Assembly (NCBI GenBank): GCA_017642885.1
Contig: JAEPOM010000020.1
Location: 1 to 64,000, forward strand
Length of the DNA: 64,000 nt
Source: Henriciella sp.
Lineage (GTDB): Bacteria; Pseudomonadota; Alphaproteobacteria; Caulobacterales; Hyphomonadaceae
Reading direction: 5' to 3'
Position numbers and translations under genes: made by a program. The notes below the pieces were generated by a model that was not told the DNA's origin, searched no databases, and saw only the letters and a program-made list of their open reading frames with translations. Below, piece after piece: positions 8,193-56,442 of this stretch; position 1 is the first letter of the stretch, and the number at the start of each line of letters is the position of its first letter.

Positions 8193-9488
8193 TCAAAAAT
8201 TTTCGCGGATCCAGTTTAAGGCCTTCGAAATCACTCCACGCCCGGCGGGACCTCCGGTAAGCGCCGCTGCTCCCCCTGCCCGAGAAGCGTCGGCAAACCC
8301 CTTCAATTCATAGCTTATCAGACCCGCCGCTGTGGAAAAGGCCGGATTACCGTAATTGTCACCTAAAATGTCAGCATCGATAGGTCGTCCGAGCCGAACA
8401 GGCTGTTTCAGGACCTCAGCAGCGAGCTCACGCACACCGGCAAGCTGGCTCGCGCCGCCGGTGAGAACGGTCCGTCTCGGAAGGATCGGACGCAGTGGAC
8501 TGGCCGTGAGATGCGCCTGCACCATTTCGAATAATTCTTCGATCCGCGGCGCAATGATCGAGGTCAGCTCGCCGCGGGTCATACGGCCAGCCTTCAGGCG
8601 GCCATCATCGCCGAGACGCGGCGCTTCAATCCGCTCCGCCATGCCGGGACCGTCCGTATCAGCGGTTCCATGCAGCGTTTTCAGACGTTCCGCCGCGGCG
8701 AAAGTCGTACCAATCCCTTGCGCAATATCACCGGTCACGCGGGCCCCACCCACTTTGACCAGGTCCAACCAGGCTGGCGCCCCGTTCATGAACACAGAGA
8801 CTGACGTCACGCCGCCGCCAAAATCGATGCAGACAGCGCCGTTCTCGATCTCGTCATCAATCAAGGTGCCAGATCCGCTCGCCAGCGCTGACGGAACGAT
8901 GCGTTCCACACCCAGATGGGCGCGCTGCACACATTCTTTGAGATTCTTCACCAGAGACTTCGGCGCCGTCACCACATTCAGCAGGACGCGCACGCGGTCG
9001 CCGATCATGCCAACCGGGTCACGGATGTCATCTTGATCGTCAACGCCGTACATGACGGGATAAGCGCCAAGCAGCTCCCGCTCTTTTGGGACAATCTTGC
9101 CGAGCGCTTGCGCCCAGACTTTCTGAACATCGCGGCTGGAAATTTCGCGCTGGCCAAGCTCGATCTCTGCTTCGGCGAGTTGGCTGTCTACTTTTGGCCC
9201 GGTAATCCCGAGGATCACGCGATCTATACGCTCACCGGCTTCACGCTCAGCATCTTCCACCGCGAGGCGGATGGAGCGTTCCAGGGCTTCAATATCACTG
9301 ATCGAGCCGCCATTGAAACCGCGGCTCTGTTGGCGGCCACCGCCCATGAAAGCAAATCCGGCGCGGCTGCCAGGATCCACGCGGCCAATCAAACAAGCAA
9401 TTTTCGAACACCCAATATCCAGCGCTGCGACGACTGTACCGGCTTTGCCGACATGTCTCGGCTTTAGTCTTTGCGTGTTCGCGGCCAT
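8193..9488 (-). CDS. ftsA: Cell division protein FtsA
   Basis: FtsA is the actin-like ATPase that tethers FtsZ filaments to the membrane. The 431-residue protein shows the phosphate-1 loop ALDIGCSKIACLIG (near residue 22), the SHS2 region after about residue 90, the second phosphate loop IDFGGGVTSVSVF (near 220) and GGASQLAGVREL (near 345). The extreme C-terminus ISKALNWIRENF is the usual amphipathic membrane helix. Its ATG overlaps the ftsQ stop (TGATG), so the two are translationally coupled. Confidence 0.97.
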   Translation of the reverse strand: MAANTQRLKPRHVGKAGTVVAALDIGCSKIACLIGRVDPGSRAGFAFMGGGRQQSRGFNGGSISDIEALERSIRLAVEDAEREAGERIDRVILGITGPKVDSQLAEAEIELGQREISSRDVQKVWAQALGKIVPKERELLGAYPVMYGVDDQDDIRDPVGMIGDRVRVLLNVVTAPKSLVKNLKECVQRAHLGVERIVPSALASGSGTLIDDEIENGAVCIDFGGGVTSVSVFMNGAPAWLDLVKVGGARVTGDIAQGIGTTFAAAERLKTLHGTADTDGPGMAERIEAPRLGDDGRLKAGRMTRGELTSIIAPRIEELFEMVQAHLTASPLRPILPRRTVLTGGASQLAGVRELAAEVLKQPVRLGRPIDADILGDNYGNPAFSTAAGLISYELKGFADASRAGGAAALTGGPAGRGVISKALNWIRENF

Positions 9489-10309
9489 CAGGCAGCTCCT
9501 CCCATCATCTCTCCGGCAGGTGTCAAAAACACCCGCCCCGTCACGCGCAGATCAATCTCTTTGAGCGGACGGCGCGTCAGCTCCCCAGCTTCATCCAGGC
9601 GCGCAAAACTCAGCACGCTGGGTGTAATACTCTCGTCATTCGGCAGCTTCACCAGGGCCCCAGATTTGAGAACCAGATCCCAGCGACGACCCGCAACCCG
9701 GCGGGCATGGTCGATTTCCTGACGCAGACCCGGCATTACCAACAACGCCTTGTCCAAGGCCGGAGCCGCGGCGGGCCCACCAACCCCAACAGTCTTGATA
9801 AGATCAGCGTGATCCTGCGGGCGGGCTTTCGGCATGAGCTGGCCCATATTGTCGACAACGGTCCAGGTCTGACCGTCATTCCAAAGCGCCATGGGTTCAG
9901 CCGCATCGGCATAGATCATGACCGTGTCGGGCCAGAGACGGAAAACGCGAACATTGGTGACCAGGCGGGTCTCTTCGACGCGGCGCTGGATCAGATGCGG
10001 ATCGGCGCGGAACATGTTCTCGCCCGGCTCAACCATGGCGGAGGCCTTGATCTGACGCGCCACAGCGGGAACGTGCTCAAGCCCGATCACTTCGACCGTA
10101 TCAACCGATAGGCCCACAGACCGCGACGCCCCGTCCATCGCGCTGCCCCAGCGCTGGCCCATTTGTGAGAGCGAACCGCCAAGCATAGCTGCGCCCGCCA
10201 CGATCATGGCGACGACCATGACGAGGCCGAAGACAACCGAAGAAATCTGGGTACGTTCCAGATAGACTTCCGGCTCAGGCGCTTTCTTTTTGCTTTTCGC
10301 TCGCGGCAT
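9488..10309 (-). CDS. ftsQ: Cell division protein FtsQ
   Basis: FtsQ is a bitopic divisome protein linking early and late division proteins. With the start at 10309 it has 273 residues: a basic cytoplasmic tail (MPRAKSKKKAPEPE), one membrane segment (about residues 27-47), a POTRA domain (about 65-135, starting VDTVEVIGLEHV) and a beta domain that ends near GRVFLTPAGEMMGG. The start was chosen because AGGGAAG lies 4-10 bases upstream; the longer ORF from 10465 adds 52 atypical residues. In most alphaproteobacteria ddl lies directly upstream; here it is absent. Confidence 0.93.
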   Translation of the reverse strand: MPRAKSKKKAPEPEVYLERTQISSVVFGLVMVVAMIVAGAAMLGGSLSQMGQRWGSAMDGASRSVGLSVDTVEVIGLEHVPAVARQIKASAMVEPGENMFRADPHLIQRRVEETRLVTNVRVFRLWPDTVMIYADAAEPMALWNDGQTWTVVDNMGQLMPKARPQDHADLIKTVGVGGPAAAPALDKALLVMPGLRQEIDHARRVAGRRWDLVLKSGALVKLPNDESITPSVLSFARLDEAGELTRRPLKEIDLRVTGRVFLTPAGEMMGGAA

Positions 10310-10480
10310 GCCGCTTCCCTTATCATCGCCAACAAAACCCGTTGGACAACGACATGTTTGGACTACCCAACGCCTGATGCGCTTTGTTCGCCGCACTATG
10401 ACGACCTGACTGACACCATCAGGCGGATCGGCTGTCACCACATGGCGCGATCCACCAGCGACCAATTTTGCAGTAAAGTC

Positions 10481-10495
10481 GTAAAACTCTCTTAA
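10481..10495 (-). promoter_or_regulatory. CtrA-like box upstream of ftsQ
   Basis: On the minus strand the bases read TTAA, 7 bases, TTAC, one mismatch from TTAA-N7-TTAA, about 172 bases before the ftsQ start. In Caulobacter the ftsQA promoter is CtrA-dependent. Since the gene upstream is unrelated debris, ftsQAZ probably rely on a promoter in this gap. Confidence 0.5.
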
Positions 10496-10565
10496 GGCGG
10501 AGGCGGCGCAGGCAGGTTTTTTTGGCCCGCACCGACGTTAGCCAGATCAGGCTGCGTTCAGAGCG

Positions 10566-10594
10566 AGGATCGGAGGGTGTATCCCCCCGATCCT
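10566..10594 (-). repeat. Inverted repeat after the cadherin-like remnant
   Basis: AGGATCGG and CCGATCCT pair across an inner AGGGTGTATCCCC, giving a hairpin of about 11 pairs just past the stop of the cadherin-like remnant. It could terminate that transcript, but there is no U-run after it on the minus strand. Confidence 0.45.
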
Positions 10595-10600
10595 GAAGCC

Positions 10601-11449
10601 CTAAAATCCATCGAGCGCGTCTGACATGTCGAGCTGCATCTGCGGCGCCACGAACCCGTCATCAACCCAATCTATCGCGGGCAATTTCGTGAGCTCCTGC
10701 GGCGTTGAGGGCGTCGTCGGCGGCGCTGCCGGATCAGTGGGCGTGGAAACAACCGTCCCTTCGAGATCCTCAAGCAGTTCAGCGTCCAGTTTGACGGTGG
10801 AAAGGCTGAAACCAGAGAGAGGAAGAGCGGATCCCTCCAGCACGTCCTCAACCGTGATCGTGATCGTCTGGGTGCTGGTGCGCCCACCTTCATCCGCCTC
10901 AACCACAATCTGATAGTCGTTTGTCTCTGGCAGATTGAAAGGTACCTGGGTCACATACGAGGTCATATCACCCGATATACTGGACGAGAGCGTCGTCGCA
11001 TCGACCCCTGATGGCGCGTACACGTTGTAATCGGTGGTGCCGTCGGCCTGTGCAGACGCGGTGACGATTATCTCGTTGCCGCCCAAAGTGACGATGCCTG
11101 CAAAAGTTTCACTCGTGTCCTCGCCGTTGATGAGGACGGCTTCGCCAATTTCAAGAGTGCCATTCTCATTTCCGGCCGAGGAGTTCGGGTTCTCCGTGAT
11201 GACGTTAGCATCCTGCTCAATAGTGCGCTCTGCAAGGCTGGTATCGATGCGAACGACGCTGTCAGCGGCATAAGCCGAAACTGGCGATTCATAGTCCGGT
11301 TCGTTGATGAATTTCAGCTCGTTGGTCAGGGCATCGATGGTGAACAGATCCCCGTGTGCACCGCCGACAATGGAATAAGAGACAGTGCCGCCTGAAATAT
11401 ACGGATCCGCTGAGAGGAGCAGACCTGTCCCGGTTTCGTTTTCGTCCAT
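10601..11449 (-). pseudogene. 3' fragment of a cadherin-repeat surface protein
   Basis: This open segment of about 280 codons begins inside a cadherin-like repeat (DENETGTG, then TVSYSIVGGAHGDLFTID and LKFINEPDYESP) of the kind found in long secreted adhesins. A second Ig-like stretch and a Pro/Thr-rich tail ending DMSDALDGF follow. There is no signal peptide and no proper start: upstream the sequence changes abruptly into a type I secretion ABC transporter in another frame. I read it as the C-terminal remnant of a much longer secreted protein, cut by a deletion or by misassembly near 11450. Confidence 0.6.
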
Positions 11450-11999
11450 AAAGGACCAGAATGAAGAGCGGCGTGAACGGCAGATCAAAAACCGGCAGGA
11501 TCATTCCGTTAGAATAAAAGGACTGAACCACGGAAAGGTCTGACAAGTCTTTTTGCAAGGACCCATCGGCTCGCGCTTCCGCAAAATTGACGTTGAACAA
11601 ACGCTCGCCATAGCGGCGCTGGAGCCATCTTGCCGCAAGCGCCAATGTGTGCCGACGCGCGCTTTCGGCGAACACGTATGTGACCATCAACCCCGCCGCC
11701 AATCCCGAGACGAGCAGCAATGTATCGAGCGACCCTGATGTTAGAACCCGGTCATAGACTTGCAGCATATAGAGCGGCGAAACGAGCAGCAAAATATTGA
11801 CCGAAACGGAGAAGAAAGCCGTGACCAGAATGAAGGAATTCAGTCCGGTATTCTGAGACCCCTTATCCTGCGTCATATCTTCATTCACGGGCGCTTGACC
11901 CATGGGGGCGGCACCAAGAGACTTTTGAAGAGATCCCTTAGCGTTCTCTTGCGGGGGGCTTGTTTGCGGGTCCGATTGCGCCGCGCCTGACGGGCTCAT
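11450..11999 (-). pseudogene. 5' fragment of a type I secretion ABC transporter (PrtD/HlyB type)
   Basis: The first 183 or so codons look like the N-terminal half of a type I secretion permease/ATPase. There is a Pro/Gln-rich lead, a membrane segment with FFSVSVNILLLVSPLYMLQ, then YDRVLTSGSLDTLL, a second segment, ARRHTLALAARWLQRRYGE, and FDLPFTPLFILVL. Full members have about 570 residues with the remaining helices and an ATPase domain, which are absent. After FILVLY the frame continues as about 50 basic, unrelated residues, while the other frame becomes cadherin-like. The likely start is the ATG at 11999. The product cannot be a working transporter. Confidence 0.65.
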
Positions 12000-12429
12000 T
12001 TGTACGACTCGCAAGCGGCAATCATCCAAGCGGTCCGTCCGTCTCGCACGGCACGTGTTCTGGCCTTTAAATTTGGTTCGCCCGCCACTCTATGTTCCCT
12101 CAAAAAAGAACGAACTTCGCCGCGCTGGAGGTGCAATCTCCCAACTCAGAAACGTTCGTGAATTGATCAACACTCTAGAAGAGAGGTGCGGTCAGTCATT
12201 CTCTCATCGTCTCAATTTCTTCGCAGAGGCTTCCCCACTCCCCTCGCGAACAAACGCGCTCAAGACATGGAAGTTGCGCGCAAGAACCCTGTTTGGATTC
12301 CCAAAATTCCAATGAAAACATGCGAGTTTCCGCGCCCTAGAAGAATAATTTTCCGAGGGGGTTGCTCTGAGTGTTTACATGTGTAACACGAATGCACCGA
12401 GATTGGTTCCGCGTCTGGAGTAACACTTA
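12000..12429. other. Divergent intergenic region before the TonB-dependent receptor
   Basis: About 430 bases between the transporter remnant and the plus-strand receptor gene, with no supportable ORF. It must contain the receptor promoter. An imperfect palindrome with GTGTT/AACAC arms (12371-12389) lies about 40 bases before the receptor start and could be an operator. I see no Fur box or riboswitch. Confidence 0.35.
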
Positions 12430-14472
12430 ATGAAACGCACTTTCCTCGTCGGGTTAGCGATCAGTCTTCCCCTCTCTGCACCCGCACAGAACCTGGACCA
12501 GCCCGACGAGGATTCACGGACATTTACGTCTTCGGACTTTCAACAATTCGCGCCGCGCACCGCGCTGGACATGGTTTCCCAGATTCCGGGCTTCAGCATC
12601 TCTCAAAGCGATGAGGAACAACGCGGATTTGGACAGGCAGACGAAAACGTCCTGATCAATGGCCAACGCATCTCATCAAAATCTACATCCGCTAGAGATG
12701 CGCTCTCTCGTATCCCGGCAGAGAATGTCGAGAAGATCGAGATTGTCGATGGCGCGCGCCTGGATATTCCGGGTCTCAGCGGACAAGTTGCCAACGTCTC
12801 CGCAACCTCCAGCGGGATCTCCGGCACCTGGAGCGTTCACCAGAGATATCGTGAACGACTCGAAGCCGGTGTTCGCTGGGCAGAAGTGTCCGTGAACGGC
12901 CAATACGGCAATCTTGGTTGGGCCCTCACGCTTGAGGCAGAACCCGGACGCGGCGGCGCTGCGGGACGCGAAAACATATTCGACGGTTCGGGAAACCTAA
13001 CCCACTTTCGCGAGGAGCGCGGCCGGTTCTTAAATGAGAATACAAGCATCAACGGTAGTCTGGCCTGGACGCCGAGCAATGGTCACATCGCTAATCTGAA
13101 CGCCGAGTACAGCGTTTCTGAACCAGACGAACTCGAAACCAGCTCAGAATTTCTGGCTGATGGCACTTTGGTCAGCCAATCCGAATTCAAGTTCAATGAA
13201 GACGAGTGGGAAGGCGAAATTGGCGCGGACTATGAATTTGGGCTCGGGCCAGGTCGCCTGAAGTTGATCGGTTTGCAACGCAATGAACACAGCCCTGTCA
13301 CACTTCAGTTTCTCCGATCAAACGTCGATGGCACGAACATCACAAATGACCTCTTCGCGCGCACCACGGACGAAAGCGAGAGCATTTTGCGCGGCGAGTA
13401 TAGCTGGGCCGGGAAGAACAATTCCGACTGGCAGGTTTCCCTCGAAGGGGCGTTCAATTCCCTCGAGAACGAATCCGACTTTTTCACCGGCACGACCTTG
13501 GACGCGACCCCGAACCGCACCGTGATCGACCCCGGAACACGCGTCGAAGAAAAGCGAGCCGAAACCTTCATCACACATGGCCGCCAACTGAACCAGAAGA
13601 TGCGGCTGCAAGTCACTCTGGGTGCGGAACAGTCGGAGATTTCCTCTGACGGTGTAGGCGGACAAACGCGTACGTTCACCCGTCCCAAAGGCAGCGCATC
13701 GCTGGCTTGGGATGTAGATGATAATCTGAAAGTCAATGCGTCTGCGGAACGGATGGTTGGGCAGCTCGACTTTTTCGATTTCGTCGCCAATATCGACCCG
13801 AACAATGGCGATGATAATGTTGGGAACGCAGACATCGTTCCGGATCAACGCTGGCGCTTTTCCGTAGAAGCCGAGAAGGACTTTGGCAGCTGGGGCGCGC
13901 TCACCGCCGAGGTCATTTATGATGAAATTGAAGACCTGATCGATCAGGTCCCAATCGGAAATGGCGAGGGCCCGGGCAATCTGGACAGTGCCTCTCGGAT
14001 CGCGTTTGAGCTTGATGGAACTTTGATGCTCGACAATTTCGGCTGGAAAGGAGCGCAGCTCGAATATCAGACATCCCTGCAAGACACATTCCTCGACGAT
14101 CCGTTGACGGGCGAAACCCGCGACTTCAACGCCTCACGCATCCACTTCTACGAGGTCAACCTGCGCCACGATATTCCCAACACCAATCTGGCCTGGGGCA
14201 TCAATTACGAGAATTTCCTGGAATCTCCGCGGTTTCGCCGTGACGTTCGTATCAACTTCTCAGAGCCGAAGGGCTTTGTCTGGGGGTTTGTCGAGCATAA
14301 GGATATTTTCGGCATGACCGGCACGGCCTTTTTCGGCAACCTGATCGATACCGATTCTAAAGTGACAAGAGTGTTCTACGATCCCGATCGCAACGGTCAG
14401 ATTGATCGGGTCGAAGATCGTATTCGCAACTTCGGCAGCATTCTCACGCTGCGACTGAAAGGGACGTTCTAG
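12430..14472 (+). CDS. TonB-dependent receptor-like outer membrane protein
   Basis: A 680-residue exported protein. It has a signal peptide ([20 protein letters not shown]), a plug-like domain (about residues 35-130: [41 protein letters not shown]) and then a long run of alternating beta strands, ending in Phe as outer membrane barrels do. No clear TonB box is visible near the N-terminus, and the substrate is unknown. It faces against the dcw cluster and its stop overlaps that of murB by 4 bases. It stands where ddl is expected, so it looks like an insertion into the cluster. Confidence 0.85.
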
Positions 14473-15398
14473 TCCTGTTGCAACCGACCAATCCGGCGAA
14501 TTTCCCAGCGCAGGTCAACACCTGAATGTTCCAGGACACGCGCGCGCACTAATTCTCCAAGTGCCTCAATATCCGCAGCGGTCGCTTCGCCCGTATTGAT
14601 CAGAAAGTTGCAATGCTTCTCGCTGACCATCGCGCCGCCGACGCGGAGACCTCGGCAGCCCGCAGCGTCGATCAGTTTCCAGCTTGAGCGCGCATCGGGC
14701 GTCCCCGGTGGGTCCGGATTGGCGAAAGTCGACCCGCCTGTCTTGTCCTTGATTGGCTGCGTGTCGGCGCGGCGTTTTTGGTGCGCTGCGATCTCTTCAG
14801 CCAAGATATCGGGATCGCTCATGCCGCTCCCTTCTAGATGCAGCTGGGTGACGATAACATTGCTGGCAAAGTCGGTATGGCGGTAGGCAAAGCCGATATC
14901 TTTTCGCTGCAGGCTCACCGGCTCGCCCGCGCGGCTTATGCCGTCCACGGCGATGACGACATCGCTCAGCTCATGTCCGTAGCACCCTGCATTGGTGCGC
15001 ACCGCTCCGCCGATCGAGCCCGGAATGCCAGAGAGAAATGAGAGACCACCAATTCCGGCCCGGGCAGCCGCTTTCGCGACACTTAGATCCAGCGCTCCGG
15101 CACGCGCGCTGACGGTTGTATCGTGATGTTTGACCTTCCCCCAATACGCGCCCATCAACCGGATCACGACGCCCTCGATCCCACCATCGCGCACAATCGT
15201 ATTTGAACCGACCCCGAGAACCGTGACTGGAACATCTTCCGGTAGCGCCTTTAGGAAGGCCGCCAGGTCGGCGTCATCCGCTGGCAAGAACAAGGCATCG
15301 GAGGTGCCGCCCACGCGGAACCATGTATATGGCGCCAACGGCGCATCGGTCAGCAATTTGCCCCGCGGCTGCGGCATCGACTCAAGATCAAAATCCAT
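14469..15398 (-). CDS. murB: UDP-N-acetylenolpyruvoylglucosamine reductase
   Basis: MurB reduces UDP-GlcNAc-enolpyruvate to UDP-MurNAc with FAD and NADPH in the cytoplasm. The 309-residue protein has the FAD-binding start (NTWFRVGG-like [10 protein letters not shown], near residue 26), [15 protein letters not shown] (near 60), the type II-like [15 protein letters not shown] (near 125), catalytic-site [11 protein letters not shown] (near 222), and ...[15 protein letters not shown] near 260. The next gene on this strand should be ddl but the cluster is broken here. Confidence is high from motif order and cluster position. Confidence 0.97.
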
Positions 15399-15480
15399 AA
15401 GCTGCCCTAACCCGCCAACGCATCAGAGCAAAGGGGTGAAGGCACAACAAACGCGGTTGCCGATTGACGAAGCTGAAGGA

Positions 15481-16050
15481 CTAGAATGTGTAACGCAGCC
15501 TGAAATGGGCGCTCGCCTCAGTCTCGTATTGCTCAGCGAGCAGCGCGCCAGACGTCGCCGCCAGGCGGCTGTGATCGGGTGGATTGAACACCCCTACCCC
15601 GATCGCCGCATTCGCCGACCAGCCCGTTTTGTTAGACCCGGAGCGAACGCCCAATCCAATAAAGGGTGCGCTGTCTGATTGGCGGTTAAACAGCCTATCG
15701 CTCCGGGTCATCTCAGTAATCGCGCGATCAATTTGACGTCCAAGTTCGGACGCATCCTCGGTCGTGCCGACTGTCACAACGAGATTTGGATGCGGGGTCG
15801 AGAATTGTGCAAACTTACCGACACGGCCAGCCTCCGCAACGTCGACTTGCGGCGATGGGAGCTCGGCCGGTGCATCGGTGAATCTCGCATCGAATCGGGG
15901 TCGCAGGGGTGTTGGCGAAACGGTCACAGGCGTCGTGTCTACGAAACGCAGCCGCAATACAGGCTCATCATCCATCAGAGCGTCAGCGGCAACACCTGCC
16001 ACTCCACCTCCGATTACTATGATTGCCAAACACGCAGTCTTAAAGCGCAC
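15481..16050 (-). CDS. Hypothetical exported or membrane-anchored protein in the dcw cluster
   Basis: About 189 residues, family not recognised. A single hydrophobic segment near the start (TACLAIIVIGGGVAGVAADA) could be a signal peptide or anchor. The rest is acidic and Pro-rich in the middle, and the C-terminus (SAHFRLRYTF) alternates and ends in Phe like an outer membrane strand. I prefer the GTG at 16050, which has AGAGGG about 7 bases upstream; the GTG at 16089 has no ribosome site. It sits between murC and murB in the same direction, so it is probably co-transcribed. A cell envelope role is inference. Confidence 0.55.
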   Translation of the reverse strand: MRFKTACLAIIVIGGGVAGVAADALMDDEPVLRLRFVDTTPVTVSPTPLRPRFDARFTDAPAELPSPQVDVAEAGRVGKFAQFSTPHPNLVVTVGTTEDASELGRQIDRAITEMTRSDRLFNRQSDSAPFIGLGVRSGSNKTGWSANAAIGVGVFNPPDHSRLAATSGALLAEQYETEASAHFRLRYTF

Positions 16051-16152
16051 GACGTCGTCCCTCTCGTCATCAAGGGGCGATGTAGCCACCGAGATTTTGA
16101 CAAAAGTTCAGAGAAATTGGCGCAATTCAGGACGCCTCGTTCACCATAAGGC

Positions 16153-17562
16153 TCAGGACTCGAGCCGCTCGATCAATTCGTTCGCATGGGTCGATATGCT
16201 CCCCGCGCCCATACAAACGACCATATCGCCGGGTTCTGAGATCTCCCGAATCAGATCCGGTAAGGTTTCCAGATCGTCGAGCACCTGGGCCTGTTTATGG
16301 CCATGTCCCCGCATACTTTCGACCAGGTGAACGTGATCGACGCCCTCAATCGGCGTCTCGCCGGCGGCAAATACGGGTGTGATGACCGCAATATCAGCCT
16401 CGCGATAGCATTGCGCAAACTCTTCAAACAGATCCCCGAGCCGCGAATACCGATGGGGCTGCGAGATGGCGATGACACGCCCCTGCCCCTGAATGGCCCG
16501 GGCCGCTTTCAGGCAAGCCATGATCTCGACCGGGTGGTGAGCGTAATCGTCGATGACTTTCACACCGTTCCATTCGCCAACCGGAGTGAAGCGCCGTTTG
16601 ACCCCGCCAAAGGCTTTCAAACTATCGCGCAGCTGCTCATTGCTCGCGCCAAGTTCGACCGCCACGGCGATCGCAGCCAGCGCGTTGGAAACATTGTGCT
16701 CCCCCGCCATGGGCAGGAAGACTTGCTCGATTACTCGCTCGTCTGCGTTCAGATTGGACCGGATCATCACGTCGAACGTGACGCCCTCAGTGGTCGGTTG
16801 CAGGTTCACCGCGCGCACATCGGCCTGGCGATTATAGCCATATGTGATGATCCGCCGGTCCGAGACGCGCGCGACCATGGCCGCGACTTCCGGATGATCG
16901 GTGCACAGTACGCCAAAGCCATAGAATGGGATGTTGCCGACATAAGTATCAAACGCGGCGCGCAGCGCATCCATGGAGCCATAATGCTCCATATGCTCTG
17001 GATCCATATTGGTCACGATCGCGATGGTCGGACGGATCTTCATGAACGTGCCGTCCGACTCGTCAGCCTCCAGAACGATCCAGTCACCGTCGCCCGCTTT
17101 GGCGTTTGAGCCATAGGCGTTGATGATGCCGCCATTGATCACGGTCGGGTCGATGCCGGCGCCGTCCAGCAAGGCAGCGACCATGGTTGTGGTGGTCGTC
17201 TTGCCATGCGTGCCCGCAACCGCGACGGTCCATTTCAGGCGAATGATTTCAGCCAGCATATCAGCGCGGCGAACGACCGGAATGCCCGCGGCCCGCGCTG
17301 CCTGGACCTCGACATTGTCATCCTTGATCGCGCTGGAGATGATCACTGCGCTGGTCCCGGCGACATTGTCAGCCACATGCCCAATATGCACGACCGCGCC
17401 TTTCTCGCGCAGACGCTCGACATTGGCGCTCTCTTTCATATCCGAGCCCTGAACCTGATAGCCAAGATTGATCATGATCTCGGCAATACCGGACATGCCA
17501 ATGCCGCCAATACCAACCAAATGAGCCGGACCGAGCGGGAAGGGTGTGGGGGAAGGTTTCAT
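16153..17562 (-). CDS. murC: UDP-N-acetylmuramate--L-alanine ligase
   Basis: MurC joins L-Ala to UDP-MurNAc, the first peptide-forming step of peptidoglycan. The 469-residue protein has the Mur ligase layout: N-terminal Rossmann ([15 protein letters not shown]), the ATP-binding [10 protein letters not shown] (near residue 112), central [10 protein letters not shown] (near 165) and [10 protein letters not shown] (near 184), and a C-terminal domain with [10 protein letters not shown] (near 337). The ATG at 17562 has AGGAA about 7 bases upstream; the codon at 17583 does not. A small unknown ORF precedes it in the operon. Confidence 0.96.
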
Positions 17563-17570
17563 ATCAATTC

Positions 17571-18011
17571 CTATTCGAACCACATGCTCACGACGCTGCG
17601 CTTTTTGCTATAAGTTCTGACCTTTAGGTTTTCGGCGAGAGTGTCGTCAATATACAAGCCGGAGACGCGCACAGTATGCCTGCAAAACTCCGTGTACAGC
17701 GTGGAGCGACAGTGAGTGCTCGTGCGTTCAGCGGGCAAGGGTTCGCAAGCATCCCGAGCGCTGCCGTCACCACAAATCGAAAAACAGGTGAGTTCAATAA
17801 ACTGTGCGCTTTTGATGAACGCCTGTCTTGTGCTTCCAGTTGAAAACTGCGCAGCGATCTCCCGGCCCAGCTTGCTCTGTCGATCATGTGTACGGGTCAA
17901 TTCGCAATCCACACTGTCGCGTCTCCCTGTTAGATCCGCCGCCCACCAAAAAGCGGCGACGAGCGAAAGGACACCGAACACAGCCCCAACCCGATATACA
18001 ATTGAGCTCAT
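17571..18011 (-). CDS. Small Cys-rich membrane-anchored protein between murG and murC
   Basis: A 146-residue protein with one N-terminal membrane segment (about residues 6-25) followed by a domain with six cysteines, an even number that would suit disulfides on the periplasmic side. Its ATG overlaps the murG stop (ATGA), typical of coupled translation, and its stop lies just before the murC start. I do not recognise a family. The coupling argues that it is real and made along with MurG and MurC. Six cysteines in a cytoplasmic enzyme operon is unusual and makes export likely. Confidence 0.6.
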
Positions 18012-19105
18012 CGATCTGACGCGATCTGCTCCGCCAGATCCGCCAGGTCTTGCGCCGCGCGGACGTTTCCAAGCGCTTTAGCCGCGGCGGCGCGCACCGC
18101 CAAGTTATTGGCCTCGCGCAATCGCAGCGCGATCAATTCGCCGAGCAGATTTGGATAGAGATTATCCTCCAGAAGCATATCCGCGCCGCCCGCTTCCACG
18201 AGCCCCTCGGCATTGGCTTCCTGGTGATTGTCCATAGCGATCTTGAGCGGGATCAGGATGGAGGGACGCCCGACCGCCGCTATCTCGCTGACCGTGCCTG
18301 CGCCAGAGCGTGCAATCACCAGATGCGCCGCCGCGAGCCGGTCCGGCATATCCGAAAAGAAAGACTGCAAGGTCGCGTTGACCTGGACCTTGTCATAGAT
18401 CGCGCGGACCTGATCCATTTGCTCTTCCCGGACTTGCTGGACGACGTGCAGGCGCACGCGCAACGGGGCCGGAATGTGATTGGCGATGGCAAGCGGGATC
18501 GCCTCACCCAGGATCCGTGCGCCCTGGCTGCCACCTGTGATGAAGATGGTGAGCTCAGCATCCATACTCGGGAACGGTATATCCCGGACCGCAGCGATCG
18601 GCGCGCGCACCGGATTTCCGATCGGGTGATGATTGGCCCCGCCCGGCAATCGATCCAGTCGCTCAAACCCGGACGCCACCACCGCGGCTTTTCCAGCAAA
18701 GGCGCGATTGACGCGGCCGAGCACGGCATTCTGTTCGTGGATCAGGAGTGGAATGCCAAGGCGTCTTCCCGCCGACAAGGCGGGGTAGGCCGGATAGCCG
18801 CCAAACCCTGCGACCAGAGCCGGTTTCTGTTTTTGCTTGAATCGTTTTGCGGCAGCGTTCACACCGGCCCGCAGTTTCAAGGCTGTTCCCGGCAAGGTCC
18901 ATGGTTTGCGCAGATTCGGGCTCGCCGCTTTGACTTCCATTTTCCAGTCGGCCGGAAACTTGTCGGCATAGCGCAGGCCGCGATCATCGCTGATCAGTCC
19001 GACTTCCCAGCCGCGAGATACCATTTCATCGGCAAAGGCCGCAGCCGGGAACATATGTCCGCCCGTTCCGCCTGCCCCGATCACAACTAGGGGTTTGTCG
19101 CTCAT
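18008..19105 (-). CDS. murG: Lipid I GlcNAc-transferase MurG
   Basis: MurG adds GlcNAc to lipid I to make lipid II on the inner face of the membrane. The 365-residue GT-B protein has the N-terminal G-loop [12 protein letters not shown] (near residue 10), a second G-loop FITGGSQGA (near 190), [12 protein letters not shown] (near 122), and the acceptor/UDP region [22 protein letters not shown] split near 262-283. The gene begins 1 base after the ftsW stop, and its own stop overlaps the next ORF. Confidence 0.97.
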
Positions 19106-19106
19106 T

Positions 19107-20240
19107 CTAGTCCTTCACGCTTGTATGGCCGCGCCGGATCAGGGCTAGCGCCAAGCCGAGTGTCAGCGCGATCCCTAACATTGACGACCCGCCCGAAGAA
19201 ATGAATGGCAGCGTCATGCCTTTTGGCGGGATCAGGCTCACATTTACCGCAATGTTTATGGCAGCCTGAAGACCAAAAAGCGTAAACAATCCGGTCGCTG
19301 CGGCGCGCGGATAAGGGTCGTGCAGGCGCGCTGCGGCCCTCAACCCCTTCCAGACAATGAACCCGAATATGAAGATCAGACCAATCGCAGCGATATAGCC
19401 AAACTCTTCACCGAGGACGGCATAGATGAAATCGGTATGCGCATCCGGAAGCGCTGTCTTGATCTTTCCCTCCCCAGGTCCGACGCCGAACAGGCCGCCC
19501 CGCCCAATCGCTTCGGACGCCTTGTCGATCTGGTACGTGTCGTACTCGGTCGGGTTGATGAAGGAATTGATGCGAAAGCGAACATGCGGCAGCGTTGCGT
19601 AGAGCAGGCCGGACAGCGCCGCGCCGCCACCCGCAAAAACCGCTGCCCACCGCCATGGCAGACCAGACACAAAGAAAGTCACAACGAACGCGGCGGTCAG
19701 GAGTGCCGACTGCCCGACATCAGGCTGCAACAGGAGAAAGCCGAGCGTCACACAGAAAAAGACCAACGTGATCGCTGCCCAGGGGCCCTTGGGATACATA
19801 GCCCGCTGCGCCAGCAACCAGCCGGTCAACACGATCAAGGCGGGTTTCACGAACTCCGACGGCTGAAGACTGAAGCCGCCAAAGCGGATCCAGCGCTGCG
19901 CGCCTTTCGCCTCGTATCCAGACACCAGGATGTAAGCCAGCAAGACCAGTGAGCCAAAGAACACCAAAGCCGCCAATCGGCGCGCCCAGACGCGCTCCAG
20001 AAGACTTGTTCCGACCAAGACAATCACTGCCGCACCGACGAACATCGCCTGGCGTTTCACAAAGTAGAAACTGTCAGCATAGCCAAGCCGTTCAGCTGCG
20101 GGTGGGCCTGCCGCGAGCGACATCAAAAGCCCAACACATAGCAGCAGGATCGCCGACATAAGGATTGTCCAGTCGAGCCCGCGATGCCATTCCAGAAACC
20201 GGCCTGTGGCAGAGCGCGGACGAAGGGCGACCTCGACCAT
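19107..20240 (-). CDS. ftsW: SEDS peptidoglycan polymerase FtsW
   Basis: FtsW polymerises glycan strands at the septum with its partner FtsI. The 377-residue protein has about ten membrane segments and SEDS family marks: [13 protein letters not shown] (near residue 125), the large loop with [17 protein letters not shown] (near 270), and [16 protein letters not shown] (near 335). The order murD-ftsW-murG is the normal dcw order. Confidence 0.97.
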
Positions 20241-20249
20241 GCCTGTCCC

Positions 20250-21671
20250 CTAGACCGCTTCTTTTTGCGGGGTGACTTGCGCCGCCAGGCGCTGAACAAT
20301 GTCCCTGAAGGCGTCGCCGCGCGCTTCGAAATCCTTGAACTGATCGAAACTCGCACAGGCCGGGGACAGCAACACGATAGGGTTCTGTTCGCCGGACGCC
20401 TTGGCTGCATCAAAGGCCGCCTGGGTCGCCGCTTCAAGCGTGCCGCACTTCACCGTCGAAGCCTTATCACTCAGCGTCTTGGCGAAAGAGGCTTCGCTTT
20501 CACCGATCAGATAGGCTTGCGCAATCCGGTCGAACCAGGGCTCCAGCGGCTGAATGCCTTCCGCCTTGGGAACACCGCCGGCAATCCAGTGCACGCGCGG
20601 CCAGGTCTTGAGTGCTTGCTCCGCCGCCTGCGCATTGGTTGCTTTGCTGTCATTGACGAAGCGTACGCCTTCTACTTCACCGACAAGTTCCATGCGGTGC
20701 GGTAGGCCCGGGAAGGATCTGATCGCCGCCATGATGCGCCCCGGCGCCACGCCGAGCGCCTGACAGGCGGCATAGGCTGCTGCAGCATTCTGGTGATTGT
20801 GACGGCCCGGAAGCGCTTCAGCTTCAGCCAGATCGCCGACCCGGATCGCTTGTCCGCCAATGCTGTCATAGAGGTGGCCGTCCACAGCGCTGACGCCGCG
20901 TGCGAGGCCAAATTCGGAACTGATCTGAATCACGCGGCCGCCACCTGGACGCTGACGTCCCATGGCAATCGCCTGACTATAGGGGTCATCGATGCCGACA
21001 ATTGCCGCATCGCGTAGACGCTGGTTGGCGAAGATTCGCTTCTTGGCGTCTACATAACCATCCATGCCGCCATGCCGGTCGAGATGGTCAGGTGAAATAT
21101 TCAAAAAGACCGCTACATCGCAGCGCAGGCTTTCGACCAGATCGAGTTGGTAAGACGACAGTTCCAGCACATAAATCGCGTTGGCATTCAGCGCGGCCAT
21201 ATCCAGCACGCCTTTGCCAATATTGCCGCCGACGCGAACATCACGGCCAGCTTCTTTCAATATATGACCGATCAAAGCTGTCGTCGTAGATTTCCCGTTC
21301 GTGCCTGTGATCCCGACAATCTTCGGGCGACCTTTTTCCGGAAGCGCCTGCACCGCGCGGGCGAACAATTCCATGTCGCCAACAACGGGTACGTTCATCA
21401 TCTCGGCCATGCGCACCAAACGATGCGGCTGCGGGAACCGGAACGGAATACCGGGTGACAGGACGAGCGCGGCGAATTTCTGCCAGTCGCGCTTGTTGAT
21501 GTCGCTGACATTGACGCCTTCCGCCTCGGCCTTGGCGCGCGCGGCTTCCCCGTCATCCCAGGCATGCACGCGCGCACCGCCTGCTGCCAAGGCTTTCGCA
21601 GCGGACAATCCGGTGCGGCCCAGGCCATAGACGGCGACATCGCGCCCTGCATATTCGGTGATGGGGATCAT
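20250..21671 (-). CDS. murD: UDP-N-acetylmuramoylalanine--D-glutamate ligase
   Basis: MurD adds D-Glu to UDP-MurNAc-L-Ala. The 473-residue protein has VYGLGRTGLSAAKALAAGG at the N-terminal Rossmann fold, ATP-binding GITGTNGKSTTTALI (near residue 117), ELSSYQLD (near 168), NISPDHLDRHGG (near 190) and a C-terminal domain with FVNDSKATNAQAA (near 330). It is spaced 10 bases from mraY and 9 from ftsW, in the usual order. Confidence 0.97.
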   Translation of the reverse strand: MIPITEYAGRDVAVYGLGRTGLSAAKALAAGGARVHAWDDGEAARAKAEAEGVNVSDINKRDWQKFAALVLSPGIPFRFPQPHRLVRMAEMMNVPVVGDMELFARAVQALPEKGRPKIVGITGTNGKSTTTALIGHILKEAGRDVRVGGNIGKGVLDMAALNANAIYVLELSSYQLDLVESLRCDVAVFLNISPDHLDRHGGMDGYVDAKKRIFANQRLRDAAIVGIDDPYSQAIAMGRQRPGGGRVIQISSEFGLARGVSAVDGHLYDSIGGQAIRVGDLAEAEALPGRHNHQNAAAAYAACQALGVAPGRIMAAIRSFPGLPHRMELVGEVEGVRFVNDSKATNAQAAEQALKTWPRVHWIAGGVPKAEGIQPLEPWFDRIAQAYLIGESEASFAKTLSDKASTVKCGTLEAATQAAFDAAKASGEQNPIVLLSPACASFDQFKDFEARGDAFRDIVQRLAAQVTPQKEAV

Positions 21672-21681
21672 CGGTCGCGCG

Positions 21682-22875
21682 TTACCTCAGCTTCAACGTG
21701 GCCAGGCCCGCAAGGGCGAACAGGAGCGAAAGAATCCAGAAGCGGACCACGACCCGGGTCTCAGGCCAGTTCTTCTTCTGAAAATGGTGATGCAGCGGCG
21801 CCATCAGAAAGATGCGCTTGCCTTCGCCGGTCAGCTTCCTTGTGATCTTGAACCAGCCGACCTGTAGAACAACCGACAGCACCTCAAGCACAAACAAGCC
21901 GCCAATTACGGCCAGCGCGAACTCGTGCTTAATCGCTACCGCGACCACGCCGATCAGGCCGCCGAGGCCGAGCGATCCGGTATCCCCCATGAAGACTTTG
22001 GCCGGATAGGCATTGTACCAAAGGAAGCCCATTCCGGCACCCATCATGGCCCCCATAAGGACCGCCATTTCACCCGCACCGGGCGTGAATTGAATGCCGA
22101 GATAGCCTGAGAACACAAAGTTACCGGTCAAGTAGGCAATCATCGCGAACGCCGCGCCGGTGAACATGATAGGCACAATCGCGAGACCATCCAGGCCATC
22201 GGTAAAGTTCACTGCATTTGCGAACCCGACAATCACTATGCAGGCAAAGAGGACGAAGAATCCGCCCAGTGGCAGGAAATAGTCATTCACGAAAGGGATC
22301 GCGACGCCGCCGGAGAAGGACGCCTCATTACGCTCGACAGAAGTCTCCGGCGCAAATTGCGCCACCCATTCGGCCAGCGGATTGAGCGCGCCCCAATCAG
22401 CGTGACCTAACGGCGTGTGCGCGCCATGCAGCCCCATGATGAAGGCACCGGCAAGCGCGGCCACGAGAAACTCGGTGCCAAGGCGTATGCGGGCAGACAC
22501 ACCATCGGTGCTCTGCTTGGTCACCTTGGCATAATCATCGAGGAAGCCGAGAAAGGCGTATGACAGCGACACCGCCAACACGACCCAAATGTAAGGGTTC
22601 TTCAAGTCAGCGAAGAGCAGTGTCCCGAGCAGCAGACCGACCCAGATCAGGAAGCCGCCCATTGTTGGTGTGCCCTGCTTGGAGAGCTGTGCCTCGAGCG
22701 AGAGATCACGGATCGGCTGGCCTTTGCCTTGCCGTGCGCGAAGAAAATTGATCAACCACCCGCCTGTGATCACCGTGAACAGAAACGCTGTCACAAGCGC
22801 CAGTCCTGTCCGGAAGGTCAGGTAGTTTAAAAGTCGAAGCGGCCCCTCATCGGTGGCCAGCCATTCATATAGCAT
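21682..22875 (-). CDS. mraY: Phospho-MurNAc-pentapeptide transferase
   Basis: MraY moves phospho-MurNAc-pentapeptide to undecaprenyl phosphate, giving lipid I. About 397 residues with ten membrane segments. Signatures are [11 protein letters not shown] (near residue 120), [13 protein letters not shown] (near 222), [14 protein letters not shown] (near 290) and [12 protein letters not shown] (near 365). The ATG at 22875 has AGGGGG 5 bases upstream. The start overlaps the 149-aa ORF that stands where murF is expected. The substrate, the UDP-MurNAc-pentapeptide, is the MurF product, so a MurF must exist somewhere. Confidence 0.96.
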
Positions 22876-23314
22876 CATAACCCCCTGCAGCACCTTCTGC
22901 GCCGCGGTCCATCACCTGTCCGTCTGCGGCAACGCTCTGGAGGCGCGGCTCGTCTGCGGACGGTGTTATTTCGGGGGTATTCGGTGTCATTAACAAGAGT
23001 CCGACACCGGATTTCAGTTTATCTTTTCCGTTAGGATTCCGGATTGGAATAATGCGCGCCGAAACGGACTCGTTTCGGTCTGTCATCCAGACGTGCGACG
23101 CTGCCAGGCTCGCCGCCGCAGCGCGATGGTTAGAACCCATTGTCAACAATAGAACTTCTCGGTTTTTCGCCGCGTGTCTCTGCGCCGCTTGCGCGAGCGA
23201 AGACCAGACAGACCGATGCCGAGGGTGGAATTCTGTGGATGAAATCTCCACGCCCTGCGATTGCGAAACCTGACCGTGAGATGGGACGTGAGATAGAGCG
23301 TGAGCGTCAAGCAT
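22865..23314 (-). CDS. Unrecognised 149-aa ORF at the murF position
   Basis: This ORF fills the gap between murE and mraY exactly: its ATG overlaps the murE stop by 8 bases and its stop lies inside the start of mraY. It is too short for MurF (about 450-480 residues) and lacks any Mur ligase ATP motif. A segment [14 protein letters not shown] (near residues 55-68) is only faintly like the C-terminal VLVKGSN region of MurF proteins. The N-terminus is His/Ser-rich and there is no signal peptide. It may be a real small gene, the decayed end of a deleted murF, or an ORF by chance. Confidence 0.4.
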
Positions 23315-24749
23315 TCGTCACCTCCCCCAGCGCCGCGAGAGCGGTTTCCTGATCGCTGAACGGGACCACCGTGTCGCCGATGATTTGCCCAGTTTCGTGA
23401 CCCTTGCCCGCAATTAGCAACGTATCGCCTTTACGCAGATCCTTGATCGCCCGCCGGATGGCTTCGCCGCGATCGCCAATCTCCAAGCCATTTGGAACGC
23501 CGGCCAACACTTCGGAACGAATGAAGGCCGGGTCCTCGCTGCGAGGATTGTCATCCGTAACGATCACGAGGTCGGCATGTTTGGCAGCCACTTCACCCAT
23601 CAATGGGCGTTTGCCGCGATCGCGGTCGCCGCCGCATCCGAAGACCACAACCAATCGTCCAGCTGTGTGCGGACGCGCGGCGCGGATCAGGACGTCCAGG
23701 CCTGCAGGCGTATGCGCATAGTCAACAAAAATCCCTGCGCCCGCTTCTGTTTCGCCAACATATTCGAGACGCCCTTTGACGGGCTTCAGCTTCGCCATGC
23801 CCTCAGCGACGGCCTGCAAGTCGACACCGCCAGCCAGCGCGAGGCCCGCAGCGGTCAAGGCATTCAAGGCCTGGAACTCACCGATTAGCGGAAGATCAAT
23901 CGCCGCTTTTTCGCCGCGCCAGTCGAGGAAGAGACGCTGTCCGGTTGCCTTTGGCATCAGCTCTTCAATCTTCAAATCGGCGCCGCGCCAGCCAACCGAA
24001 ACGATGTCGAGGCCAGCTGATCTGCCAGCCTCCTCGAAGAACAAACGCTGGTCGCTGTCAGCATTGACGACGGCCGGGCACCCTTTTGGAGCGAGCTCAG
24101 AGAACAGACGCGTTTTGGCTGCGCGGTACTCATCCATCGTCTCGTGATAATCGAGATGGTCTTGCGTGAGATTGGTGAACGCGACCCCAGACAGATTGAC
24201 CGCATCGAGCCGATATTGCGCGAGGCCGTGCGAGGAGGCCTCCATGGCAACATGCGAGACACCATCTTGGGCGAGGCTTTGCAAGGTCGCGTGGATCGCG
24301 ACCGGGTCAGGGGTCGTGTGGCCAAGATCGATGTGACCATTCGGACCGATGGCACCGAGCGTTCCCATACTCGCAGCACTCAGGTTCGCCTGGTCCCAGA
24401 TCTGGCGCAGAAAATCGACGGTGGAGCTTTTACCATTTGTCCCGGTGACCGCGACGATGGTTTGAGGTTGCTGCGAATAGAACCGCGCAGACGCTTCCGC
24501 CAGAGCCAGTCGGGCATTCTCGACGCCGACTGAGACCACGCCTTCGATGGGCGGCAAGTCTTCGCCCAGAACAGCGACCGCGCCAGCTTCTATCGCACCC
24601 GAAATGAACTTGCGCCCATCCGTGACAACCCCTTGCATCGCGGCAAACACGAAGCCCGGCCGCACTTGGCGACTGTCCGCGGTGAGCCCGGTGATTGGAA
24701 CGTCACCGTCTGCACCGGTGAGTTGCGGGAACAGATCTCTCAATATCAT
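23307..24749 (-). CDS. murE: UDP-MurNAc-L-Ala-D-Glu--meso-diaminopimelate ligase
   Basis: MurE adds the third residue of the stem peptide. The 480-residue protein has the ATP-binding VTGTNGKSSTVDF (near residue 105), TPDPVAIH and EASSHGLAQ (near 145-175), NLTQDHLDYHETMD (near 195), and DDNPRSEDP (near 405). The DNPR motif is the known mark for meso-diaminopimelate rather than lysine. Its ATG overlaps the ftsI stop (ATGA). Confidence 0.97.
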   Translation of the reverse strand: MILRDLFPQLTGADGDVPITGLTADSRQVRPGFVFAAMQGVVTDGRKFISGAIEAGAVAVLGEDLPPIEGVVSVGVENARLALAEASARFYSQQPQTIVAVTGTNGKSSTVDFLRQIWDQANLSAASMGTLGAIGPNGHIDLGHTTPDPVAIHATLQSLAQDGVSHVAMEASSHGLAQYRLDAVNLSGVAFTNLTQDHLDYHETMDEYRAAKTRLFSELAPKGCPAVVNADSDQRLFFEEAGRSAGLDIVSVGWRGADLKIEELMPKATGQRLFLDWRGEKAAIDLPLIGEFQALNALTAAGLALAGGVDLQAVAEGMAKLKPVKGRLEYVGETEAGAGIFVDYAHTPAGLDVLIRAARPHTAGRLVVVFGCGGDRDRGKRPLMGEVAAKHADLVIVTDDNPRSEDPAFIRSEVLAGVPNGLEIGDRGEAIRRAIKDLRKGDTLLIAGKGHETGQIIGDTVVPFSDQETALAALGEVTNA

Positions 24750-56136: not shown

Positions 56137-56310
56137 GGTTTTTTTCCTTTTTATGTTTCGCAACCCTGCCGGCTGCGAGGACCATAAGAGCGGATTTCCG
56201 CCAGCAGCTCTTCTCAACCGCGAAACTGAGTGTGCTTTTTTGAAAATGAGGACGCTTTTTGAAAATCGACAGGGTTTGACGCGAGCCACCATCTCGCCTA
56301 TCTCCCTGTC

Positions 56311-56370
56311 TCTACGTGGTGATTTGGCCGGTCGGCTTGCAGCCACGATAAAAAAGTCGCTAAAAGGCCG
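56311..56370 (+). promoter_or_regulatory. SAM-II: SAM-II riboswitch upstream of metA
   Basis: The segment holds the conserved parts of the SAM-II (metA) riboswitch: CGTGGTGATTTGGCC (56315-56329), GGCTTGCAGCCACG (56334-56347), an A-rich linker and AAGTCGCTAAAAGG (56354-56367). CGTGG pairs with CCACG, and the 3' part pairs back to form the H-type pseudoknot. SAM binding should hide the metA ribosome site and lower methionine synthesis. It ends about 70 bases before the metA start. Confidence 0.93.
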
Positions 56371-56442
56371 CGCGGATCACCCTTTGAAGGGGTTCACGTC
56401 TCCGCCTTCCTGACAGCGACAGACTGATGCGGAGAACGGCCC

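Follow-up and report, generated by a model that had tools for sequence, protein, structure and literature searches.

MurF and Ddl are treated as drug targets, with D-cycloserine acting on Ddl, and to our knowledge both are regarded as near-universal soluble enzymes of peptidoglycan synthesis. What, then, has become of this pair in a bacterium whose division and cell wall (dcw) gene cluster holds neither murF nor ddl? The question is raised by the first 64,000 nucleotides of contig JAEPOM010000020.1 (assembly GCA_017642885.1), a stretch hereafter called the window, which is contig C12 of a 3.66 Mb genome in 71 contigs (label G000, completeness 100). The genus label Hyphomonas is used here for this genome and its genus relatives. 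We report that a foreign three-gene module, encoding an alpha/beta hydrolase, a membrane-type MurF (TM-MurF) and a Ddl-type ligase (DDL2), has most likely replaced the native murF and ddl, the dcw copies of which then decayed in place.

Results

Two gaps in the dcw cluster and their candidate substitutes

The dcw order proposed in a preliminary description of the window was confirmed as mraZ-rsmH-ftsL-ftsI-murE-x-mraY-murD-ftsW-murG-(146 aa)-murC-(202 aa)-murB-//-ftsQ-ftsA-ftsZ-lpxC (aa, amino acids), murE being named by profile and the other genes by eye and by the matching order in relatives. Both absences noted there were found as well: the sole occupant of the space between murE and mraY is a 149-aa open reading frame (ORF) without family match, and no Ddl is encoded before ftsQ. 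The two sites comprise the following features of the window.

23307..24749, minus strand: murE, intact, 480 aa (NF001124, 590.6 bits; cut-off 476)
22865..23314, minus strand: 149-codon ORF at the murF place (the relic frame), its 3′ part homologous to the MurF C-terminus; open in 9/9 TM-MurF Hyphomonas
22868..23026, minus strand: murF 3′ remnant (G006 MurF residues 431-483, 47% identity, tblastn E 6.4e-5)
21682..22893, minus strand: mraY, intact, its start overlapping the end of the relic frame
10397..10501, minus strand: ddl remnant of 35 codons just upstream of ftsQ (G002 DdlB residues 213-247, 63% identity)
10475..10495, minus strand: conserved block TTAAGAGAGTTTTACGACTTT inside the ddl remnant, with a CtrA-type box TTAA-N7-TTAC at 10481-10495
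9488..10309, minus strand: ftsQ, start at about 10309; a 325-aa ORF (9488-10465) extends further upstream, as far as into the ddl remnant

Genome-wide, the MurF profile matched four places: murC, murD and murE in the dcw cluster, and C1:73820-74875 on contig C1, where a match below the family cut-off marks the genome's only unassigned MurF-type gene. The Ddl profile gave nine matches at E 1e-3, the best at C1:76221-77285 (216.8 bits, below cut-off) and the next at 69.1 bits. No canonical MurF or DdlB was found elsewhere by this profile search of the 3.66 Mb genome, which rules out an assembly gap at the murF and ddl sites. The substitutes lie side by side, as the preliminary description had thought possible for murF and ddl: a MurF-type, a hydrolase and a Ddl-type gene lie within 3.6 kb of one another on contig C1, outside the window, and form the module (C1:73772-77354).

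C1:73772-75367, minus strand: TM-MurF, 531 aa
C1:75364-76125, minus strand: alpha/beta hydrolase, 253 aa
C1:76134-77354, plus strand: DDL2, 406 aa

Where canonical MurF has its N-terminal Mur domain, the first ~165-170 residues of TM-MurF were predicted to be mostly helical, and hydrophobic windows centre on residues 10-20, 53-80 and 120-136; the membrane-type label refers to these windows and predicted helices, the membrane location itself being putative. This segment contains an FQQEEYD-like stretch, and its R23, Q32, Q33, Y36 and D52 were invariant in 25 sequences. In the same 25, TGSxGKT, H261, K275 and the DD-x-x-N-x-N motif were kept throughout, the invariant positions being G179, G182, K183, H261, K275, E277, D411, N414 and N416; the roles of MurF residues and domains (P-loop, lysine region, D-x-Y-N motif) are taken here to be those usually assigned to them. 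A structure predicted from 54 sequences for the L127 protein, which is 89% identical to the TM-MurF of the window's genome, had a pLDDT of 95 and matched best the MurF structure 3zl8, on which the part beyond the helical segment superposes (Z 36.0, root-mean-square deviation (rmsd) 4.4, 371 aligned). Foldseek ranks 1-10 were MurF entries (2am1 among those named MurF), and the top seven phmmer matches were all MurF; the structure lists relate to whole TM-MurF, not to its helical N-terminal domain alone, and no new fold is claimed.

DDL2 has the fold of Ddl over its full length (3i12, Z 38.2, rmsd 2.7, 349 aligned), with a low-confidence omega-loop stretch at 282-297 of the predicted structure. 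Equivalents of DdlB E15, H63, S150, K215, Y216, R255 and N272, in what we take to be the DdlB numbering, were kept in 83/83 DDL2 sequences, which represent 80 distinct places, the duplicates L127, L134 and L149 being counted among the 83. All 83 also kept the omega-loop K-Y pair, which is typical of D-Ala-D-Ala ligases. The second-substrate loop, which carries Ser281 in DdlB, reads PGS-x-x-x-[FY]-L in DDL2, mostly LWE and with L in all, as opposed to PGMTxxSLVP in DdlB. On the D-Lac/D-Ser (Van-type) ligase profiles shown, DDL2 reached at most 147 bits, under cut-offs of 495-775. The hydrolase has a likely Ser-Asp-His triad, S92, D203 and H231 being invariant in 41 sequences.

Canonical murF and the module exclude each other within Hyphomonas

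Among 25 Hyphomonas genomes compared (24 relatives and that of the window), seven encode TM-MurF without canonical MurF and 18 show the reverse; the seven gave only weak alphaproteobacterial MurF profile matches (best E 4e-13 to 1e-27), and each of the 18 gave a full-length MurF match at E 5.3e-106 or better and no TM-MurF. The arrangement is therefore not an ordinary one of all close relatives, a possibility that had been raised at the outset, given that 18/25 keep canonical murF. In a larger set of 29 genus genomes, TM-MurF was found in nine; murE and mraY were 381-414 bp apart in 9/9 of these, versus 1329-1606 bp, with MurF filling the space, in 18 canonical loci. A Ddl search of 16 genus genomes found no Ddl but the module's in 8/9 TM-MurF genomes and one match above the cut-off in 7/7 canonical genomes; the ninth TM-MurF genome, G042, which is 84% complete, gave no Ddl match at E 1e-25. 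A tree built from nine dcw proteins (21-25 genomes per protein) set the seven TM-MurF genomes apart from the others by a branch with support 1.000, and with midpoint rooting their clade was nested within canonical lineages, beside the canonical G006. One replacement event would be the simplest reading of this tree for Hyphomonas.

The window's genome being a 71-contig draft, its gap might have been put down to an assembly deletion or to a trait of one draft genome. This reading is excluded by the data: the same murE-mraY arrangement was present in all nine TM-MurF genomes, including the single-contig 3.6 Mb genome G041, and remains of the lost genes sit at the same places in the loci searched.

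Remains of murF and ddl at their old sites

Using tblastn with the G006 MurF, a MurF C-terminus was found between murE and mraY in 8/8 TM-MurF loci searched (window, L092, L093, L094, L097, L098, L221 and L222; L095 lies outside this set), with matches running from residue 388-441 to 483 at E 1.2e-8 to 6.4e-5. The relic frame is 145 codons long in 7/9 TM-MurF Hyphomonas and has an 8-nt overlap with the murE stop in 8/9, and its own stop overlaps the mraY start. The other two forward frames hold 3-9 stops each, and shuffles kept the frame open in only 0.02-0.5% of cases. Divergence at the three codon positions was 0.402, 0.422 and 0.432 in the relic frame, 0.125, 0.072 and 0.525 in murE, and 0.076, 0.015 and 0.419 in mraY. 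That stops are avoided while the amino acids seem free fits translational coupling from murE to mraY, and the relic frame would be what keeps the two genes coupled. The open frame, the stops in the other forward frames and the shuffles might also suggest a functional new small protein, but the equal divergence at the three codon positions shows no sign of amino-acid selection and the last 43-99 residues match the MurF C-terminus in the eight loci searched, so that we regard a new protein as very unlikely.

Inside the murF-site frame, a DnaA-box-like TCATCCACAG was seen at 23233-23242 (minus strand), the single match in the window with 0.17 expected; similar motifs and GANTC sites were noticed by eye in the murE-mraY spacers of other TM-MurF Hyphomonas. 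Perhaps these motifs belong to a cell-cycle-regulated promoter.

At the ddl site, the window's remnant was detected by tblastn at E 4e-10 within the tonB-ftsQ interval and at E 1e-7 in a search of the window together with 20 loci; with four DdlB proteins as queries, a scrap of ddl was found before ftsQ in 6/6 loci reaching the site (window, L092, L093, L094, L097 and L221). A 31-nt block of ddl, allowing up to three mismatches, is present in 23/23 loci that reach it (six TM-MurF and 17 canonical), L098 and L243 stopping short of it. In 17 living ddl genes, windows on this block had the top third-position identity of 875 (0.872; mean 0.524, standard deviation 0.108). The TTAA-N7-TTAC it contains sits 170-190 nt before ftsQ. 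The accessible text of PMC7200025 gives TTAA-N7-TTAAC as the CtrA consensus of H. neptunium and names ftsAKQZ as regulated by CtrA, and that of PMC3751295 describes a CtrA site at ftsQA of Caulobacter. A putative CtrA-dependent ftsQA promoter inside ddl thus apparently outlived ddl itself.

These relics bear directly on the explanations offered in the preliminary description. Because TM-MurF and DDL2 belong to other subfamilies and relics of the old genes persist at their sites, the substitutes are not the old genes moved, and the suggestion that the pair had moved together was rejected. Of the suggested 'fused or foreign pair', the foreign one is supported; the fused one was dropped, no fusion of the pair having been seen in Hyphomonas.

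The module outside the genus

A one-genome-per-species scan returned at least 572 stretches encoding a relative of the query, maybe not all of this subfamily, of which the best 80 were kept. Many of these come from Alphaproteobacteria, and others from records titled Gammaproteobacteria, Bacteroidota, Bacillota, Cyanobacteria, Chloroflexi, Chlamydiae and further groups. A hydrolase match was present in 71/80 and a DDL2 match in 61/80 of the fetched stretches; contig ends truncate several of these. TM-MurF was found in 22/384 other genomes sampled from the class; G177 (30% identity, from residue 169), a probable ordinary MurF, was dropped from the 23 non-genus rows. In a metagenome-assembled genome (MAG) of Poribacteria the module lies between murE and mraY, and in several alphaproteobacterial genomes between murB or murC and ftsQ. 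Tree distances of the three module proteins correlate (r 0.857, 0.901 and 0.855; 0/200 permutations each), and the TM-MurF and DDL2 trees both group Hyphomonas with Rhodobacteraceae, Croceicoccus and gammaproteobacterial MAGs in one clade (support 1.0); the module trees omit the duplicates L127, L134, L136, L141, L149 and L049. A plasmid-borne module was sought by tblastn of TM-MurF against PLSDB and set aside, as none of 30 records covered 80% of the query; the 25 of the 30 matches that were listed begin no earlier than residue 162 and are probably ordinary MurF. No description of a TM-MurF/DDL2 module was found in the open-licence literature searched.

In about 30 of the 47 carrier genomes tested, no intact MurF other than TM-MurF was detected. 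A MurF match from the profile start, partial in some, was present in 14 carriers and in G430; among the remaining 32, G426 and G429 are uninformative and G433, G427, G094, G065 and G196 hold a MurF relic only. The MurF cut-off of 1e-40 could miss weak alphaproteobacterial MurFs, and 34 genomes were re-searched with NF010693, which added G430. Actibacterium atlanticum (G426) was rejected as a TM-MurF-only isolate, since MraY was not found in it either and its dcw region may be missing; the same applies to G429.

The dcw cluster was examined in 15 further module carriers outside Hyphomonas, in which incomplete genomes limit any claim of absence. Neither murF nor DdlB lies in the stretches from G446 (Kordiimonas), G160, G265, G102, G318 and G431; in G438 (Blastochloris sulfoviridis) murE adjoins mraY, the stretch ends at murC and the sole Ddl match is the module's. 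G440 (Kordiimonas), G434 and G158 keep murF and have no DdlB between murB and ftsQ, and G430, in which the sole Ddl match is the module's, and G428 keep murF, with the ddl site outside the stretch. In G433 and G427 (Croceicoccus sediminis) murF is reduced to frames of 332 and 320 codons, and its P-loop is no longer readable; in G094, the last of the 15, a reduced murF is fused to murE (see below). Where both murB and ftsQ were found (11 loci), the two genes overlap or are separated by no more than 214 bp. Loss of murF with retention of ddl was not seen in Hyphomonas or these 15 carriers.

A Ddl search of 16 non-Hyphomonas carriers gave exactly one match each at E 1e-25, which lay beside TM-MurF in 13, elsewhere and DDL2-like in two (G160 and G265), and was unclassified in one (G442). 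Seven of the 16 (G158, G425, G430, G434, G440, G447 and G453) keep a canonical MurF match. The presence of canonical MurF beside a sole DDL2-type Ddl indicates that displacement tends to take ddl first and murF second.

In G094 (L235), G065 (L238) and G196 (L239), MurE is fused to a part of MurF that lacks the P-loop and the C-terminal domain, TM-MurF being encoded elsewhere in the genome; TM-MurF lacks just the domain that this fused part retains. In a comparison of G065 with G196, the fusion's MurF part (255 codons, 57% identical) diverges by 0.33, 0.16 and 0.52 at the three codon positions, and the MurE part by 0.16, 0.08 and 0.53. In this one close genome pair, the fused MurF part looks to be selected as a protein despite its lost P-loop. 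In another module-carrying lineage, G280, a 152-aa ORF without BLAST match to MurF lies between murE and mraY (L087 9474-9932, minus strand).

Neighbouring genes

Three further features adjoin the two sites or the module.

12430..14472, plus strand: TonB-receptor-like gene (PF07715) between murB and ftsQ; relatives at that place in several canonical Hyphomonas
10601..12029, minus strand: remains of a type I secretion/adhesin locus between the TonB gene and ftsQ (PrtD-type transporter fragment; weak Cadherin match below cut-off)
C1:77351-78130 (L013 11352-12131), minus strand: class-A-beta-lactamase-like protein, 259 aa, beside DDL2

At the place of the secretion/adhesin remains, G016 (L098, L243) encodes a 580-aa transporter 81% identical to that of the window, together with a frame of at least 2957 aa matching the window's cadherin-type tail at 34%; the secretion and adhesin locus of G016 spans 13 kb or more, with ftsQ lying beyond the end of the fetched stretch. 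The flanks of the module are largely alike in the Hyphomonas carriers as far as contigs reach, flank genes being named by eye. The beta-lactamase-like neighbour of DDL2 (P0004), which scored 57 bits to NF033103 against a cut-off of 200, was seen in the eight Hyphomonas carriers whose contigs reach that place and, among the best 80 loci, was matched only in the Hyphomonas one. No look-alikes of vanH, vanX or vanRS were noticed among the module neighbours, which were read by eye only. Elsewhere in the window, a SAM_alpha riboswitch was detected at 56306-56383 on the plus strand (73.2 bits).

Discussion

We propose that the ancestor of one Hyphomonas clade acquired the hydrolase, TM-MurF and DDL2 genes, which probably arrived horizontally as one unit, and that this module came to make and attach the terminal dipeptide; the dcw ddl and murF would then have decayed where they stood. 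The likeliest product of DDL2 is D-Ala-D-Ala, made in the cytoplasm, and TM-MurF would join this dipeptide to the tripeptide precursor at the membrane's inner face, close to MraY; the hydrolase may have some role in the same pathway. The surviving parts of the dead genes would be those with a second job, namely a CtrA-type ftsQA promoter element, at which CtrA may bind, and a frame coupling murE to mraY.

Several observations weigh against this proposal. TM-MurF scores 196 bits against the MurF family TIGR01143 (cut-off 288.6), and PF01225, the N-terminal Mur domain, was not found in it, only PF08245 and PF02875 being detected at E 0.01. DDL2 falls short of the TIGR01205 cut-off (218 bits versus 245.65), although this remains its best family match, and at the place of DdlB Ser281, which we take to hold the carboxylate of the second substrate, it has F or Y in 83/83 sequences, compared with S in 7/7 Hyphomonas DdlB. 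The activities assigned to both enzymes are putative, and with the N-terminal Mur domain missing from the one and an aromatic residue at Ser281 in the other, their substrates could differ from the canonical ones. The nearest outside relatives of the module, among the best 80 of at least 572 stretches, are at most 58% identical, too distant to point to a donor, and a search for a clean empty insertion site found none: in the canonical sisters HPD-VOC2 is present without the module and with other neighbours. As for the remains, the weakest ddl relics are short (L092: 12 residues, E 1e-4), and for two of the nine relic frames a reverse frame lacks stops as well. The CtrA-type box departs from the consensus by a single base; it occurs once in the window with 0.16 expected, and its pattern arose in 16/100 shuffles, so that the conservation of the block, not the motif, counts as evidence.

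Might the switch instead have changed wall chemistry, the module making a different peptide end (D-Ala-X, X not being D-Ala) in the manner of van clusters? The aromatic residue in the DDL2 loop would fit, as would the frequency of the hydrolase among the 80 best stretches, VanX and VanY hydrolases being known to travel with van clusters, and the vanI cluster has a murF of its own in the accessible text of PMC4229326. On the other side, the omega-loop K-Y pair is intact in every DDL2, and DDL2 scores higher on the general D-Ala-D-Ala ligase profile than on the D-Lac/D-Ser profiles. Moreover, the coexistence of canonical MurF with the module's Ddl as sole match (7/16 non-Hyphomonas carriers) suggests that canonical MurF can use the DDL2 product, and we consider a different peptide end unlikely. 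Mature walls may say little on this point, as the peptidoglycan of H. neptunium is reported to contain almost no pentapeptides (PMC10945521). Somewhat less improbable, though still doubtful, is that TM-MurF works after MraY on a lipid-linked tripeptide (lipid I or II) rather than on soluble UDP-MurNAc-tripeptide. PF01225 binds the UDP-sugar in MurF, and TM-MurF has in its stead ~165 residues of predicted helices with five invariant positions (R23 to D52); yet MraY is 92-99% identical to the window's in the TM-MurF Hyphomonas compared and 77-89% in the canonical ones, which gives no hint that its role has changed, and the persistence of the P-loop-less MurF N-part fused to MurE in G065, G196 and G094 suggests that binding of the UDP-precursor is still used there. 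A broader version, which we advance only tentatively, would make TM-MurF the membrane enzyme of a second route, acting on a lipid-linked substrate or borrowing the UDP-binding domain of the dead MurF fused to MurE, with a dipeptide that is maybe not D-Ala-D-Ala; the textbook route would then have been displaced repeatedly, ddl first and murF second. Replacement of the native pair by a foreign module that would perform the same two steps is the reading we retain.

The Hyphomonas clade offers a natural before-and-after comparison inside one genus. What survives the death of the two genes points to two regulatory jobs held in coding sequence, a CtrA-type element in ddl and a coupling frame in murF. 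That a membrane-type MurF with its own Ddl occurs under many phylum names suggests that this step of wall synthesis may exist in two forms, the second differing in the parts that bind the substrates.

Compared with known systems, TM-MurF resembles canonical MurF (TIGR01143; NF010693 in alphaproteobacteria) in its PF08245 and PF02875 domains, its TGSxGKT and its DDAYN-type motif, and differs in the exchange of PF01225 for a helical hydrophobic domain, in an ENDLPD-type C-terminal motif and in its sub-cut-off score. DDL2 shares the full-length fold and catalytic residues of DdlA/DdlB (TIGR01205), from which it is set apart by the aromatic residue at the Ser281 place, the LWE-type motif and a score under the curated cut-off. 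The vanI cluster of Desulfitobacterium hafniense, as far as the accessible text of PMC4229326 describes it, likewise unites a Ddl-type ligase with an extra MurF; in contrast, DDL2 is not of Van type by score, and in Hyphomonas the canonical genes have been lost. Finally, ddlB has left the dcw cluster in whole phyla of the FBC superphylum according to the accessible text of PMC8871954, and the absence of ddl from the cluster is common to both cases, whereas in Hyphomonas murF is lost too, within one genus, with relics of both genes and a candidate substitute for the pair.

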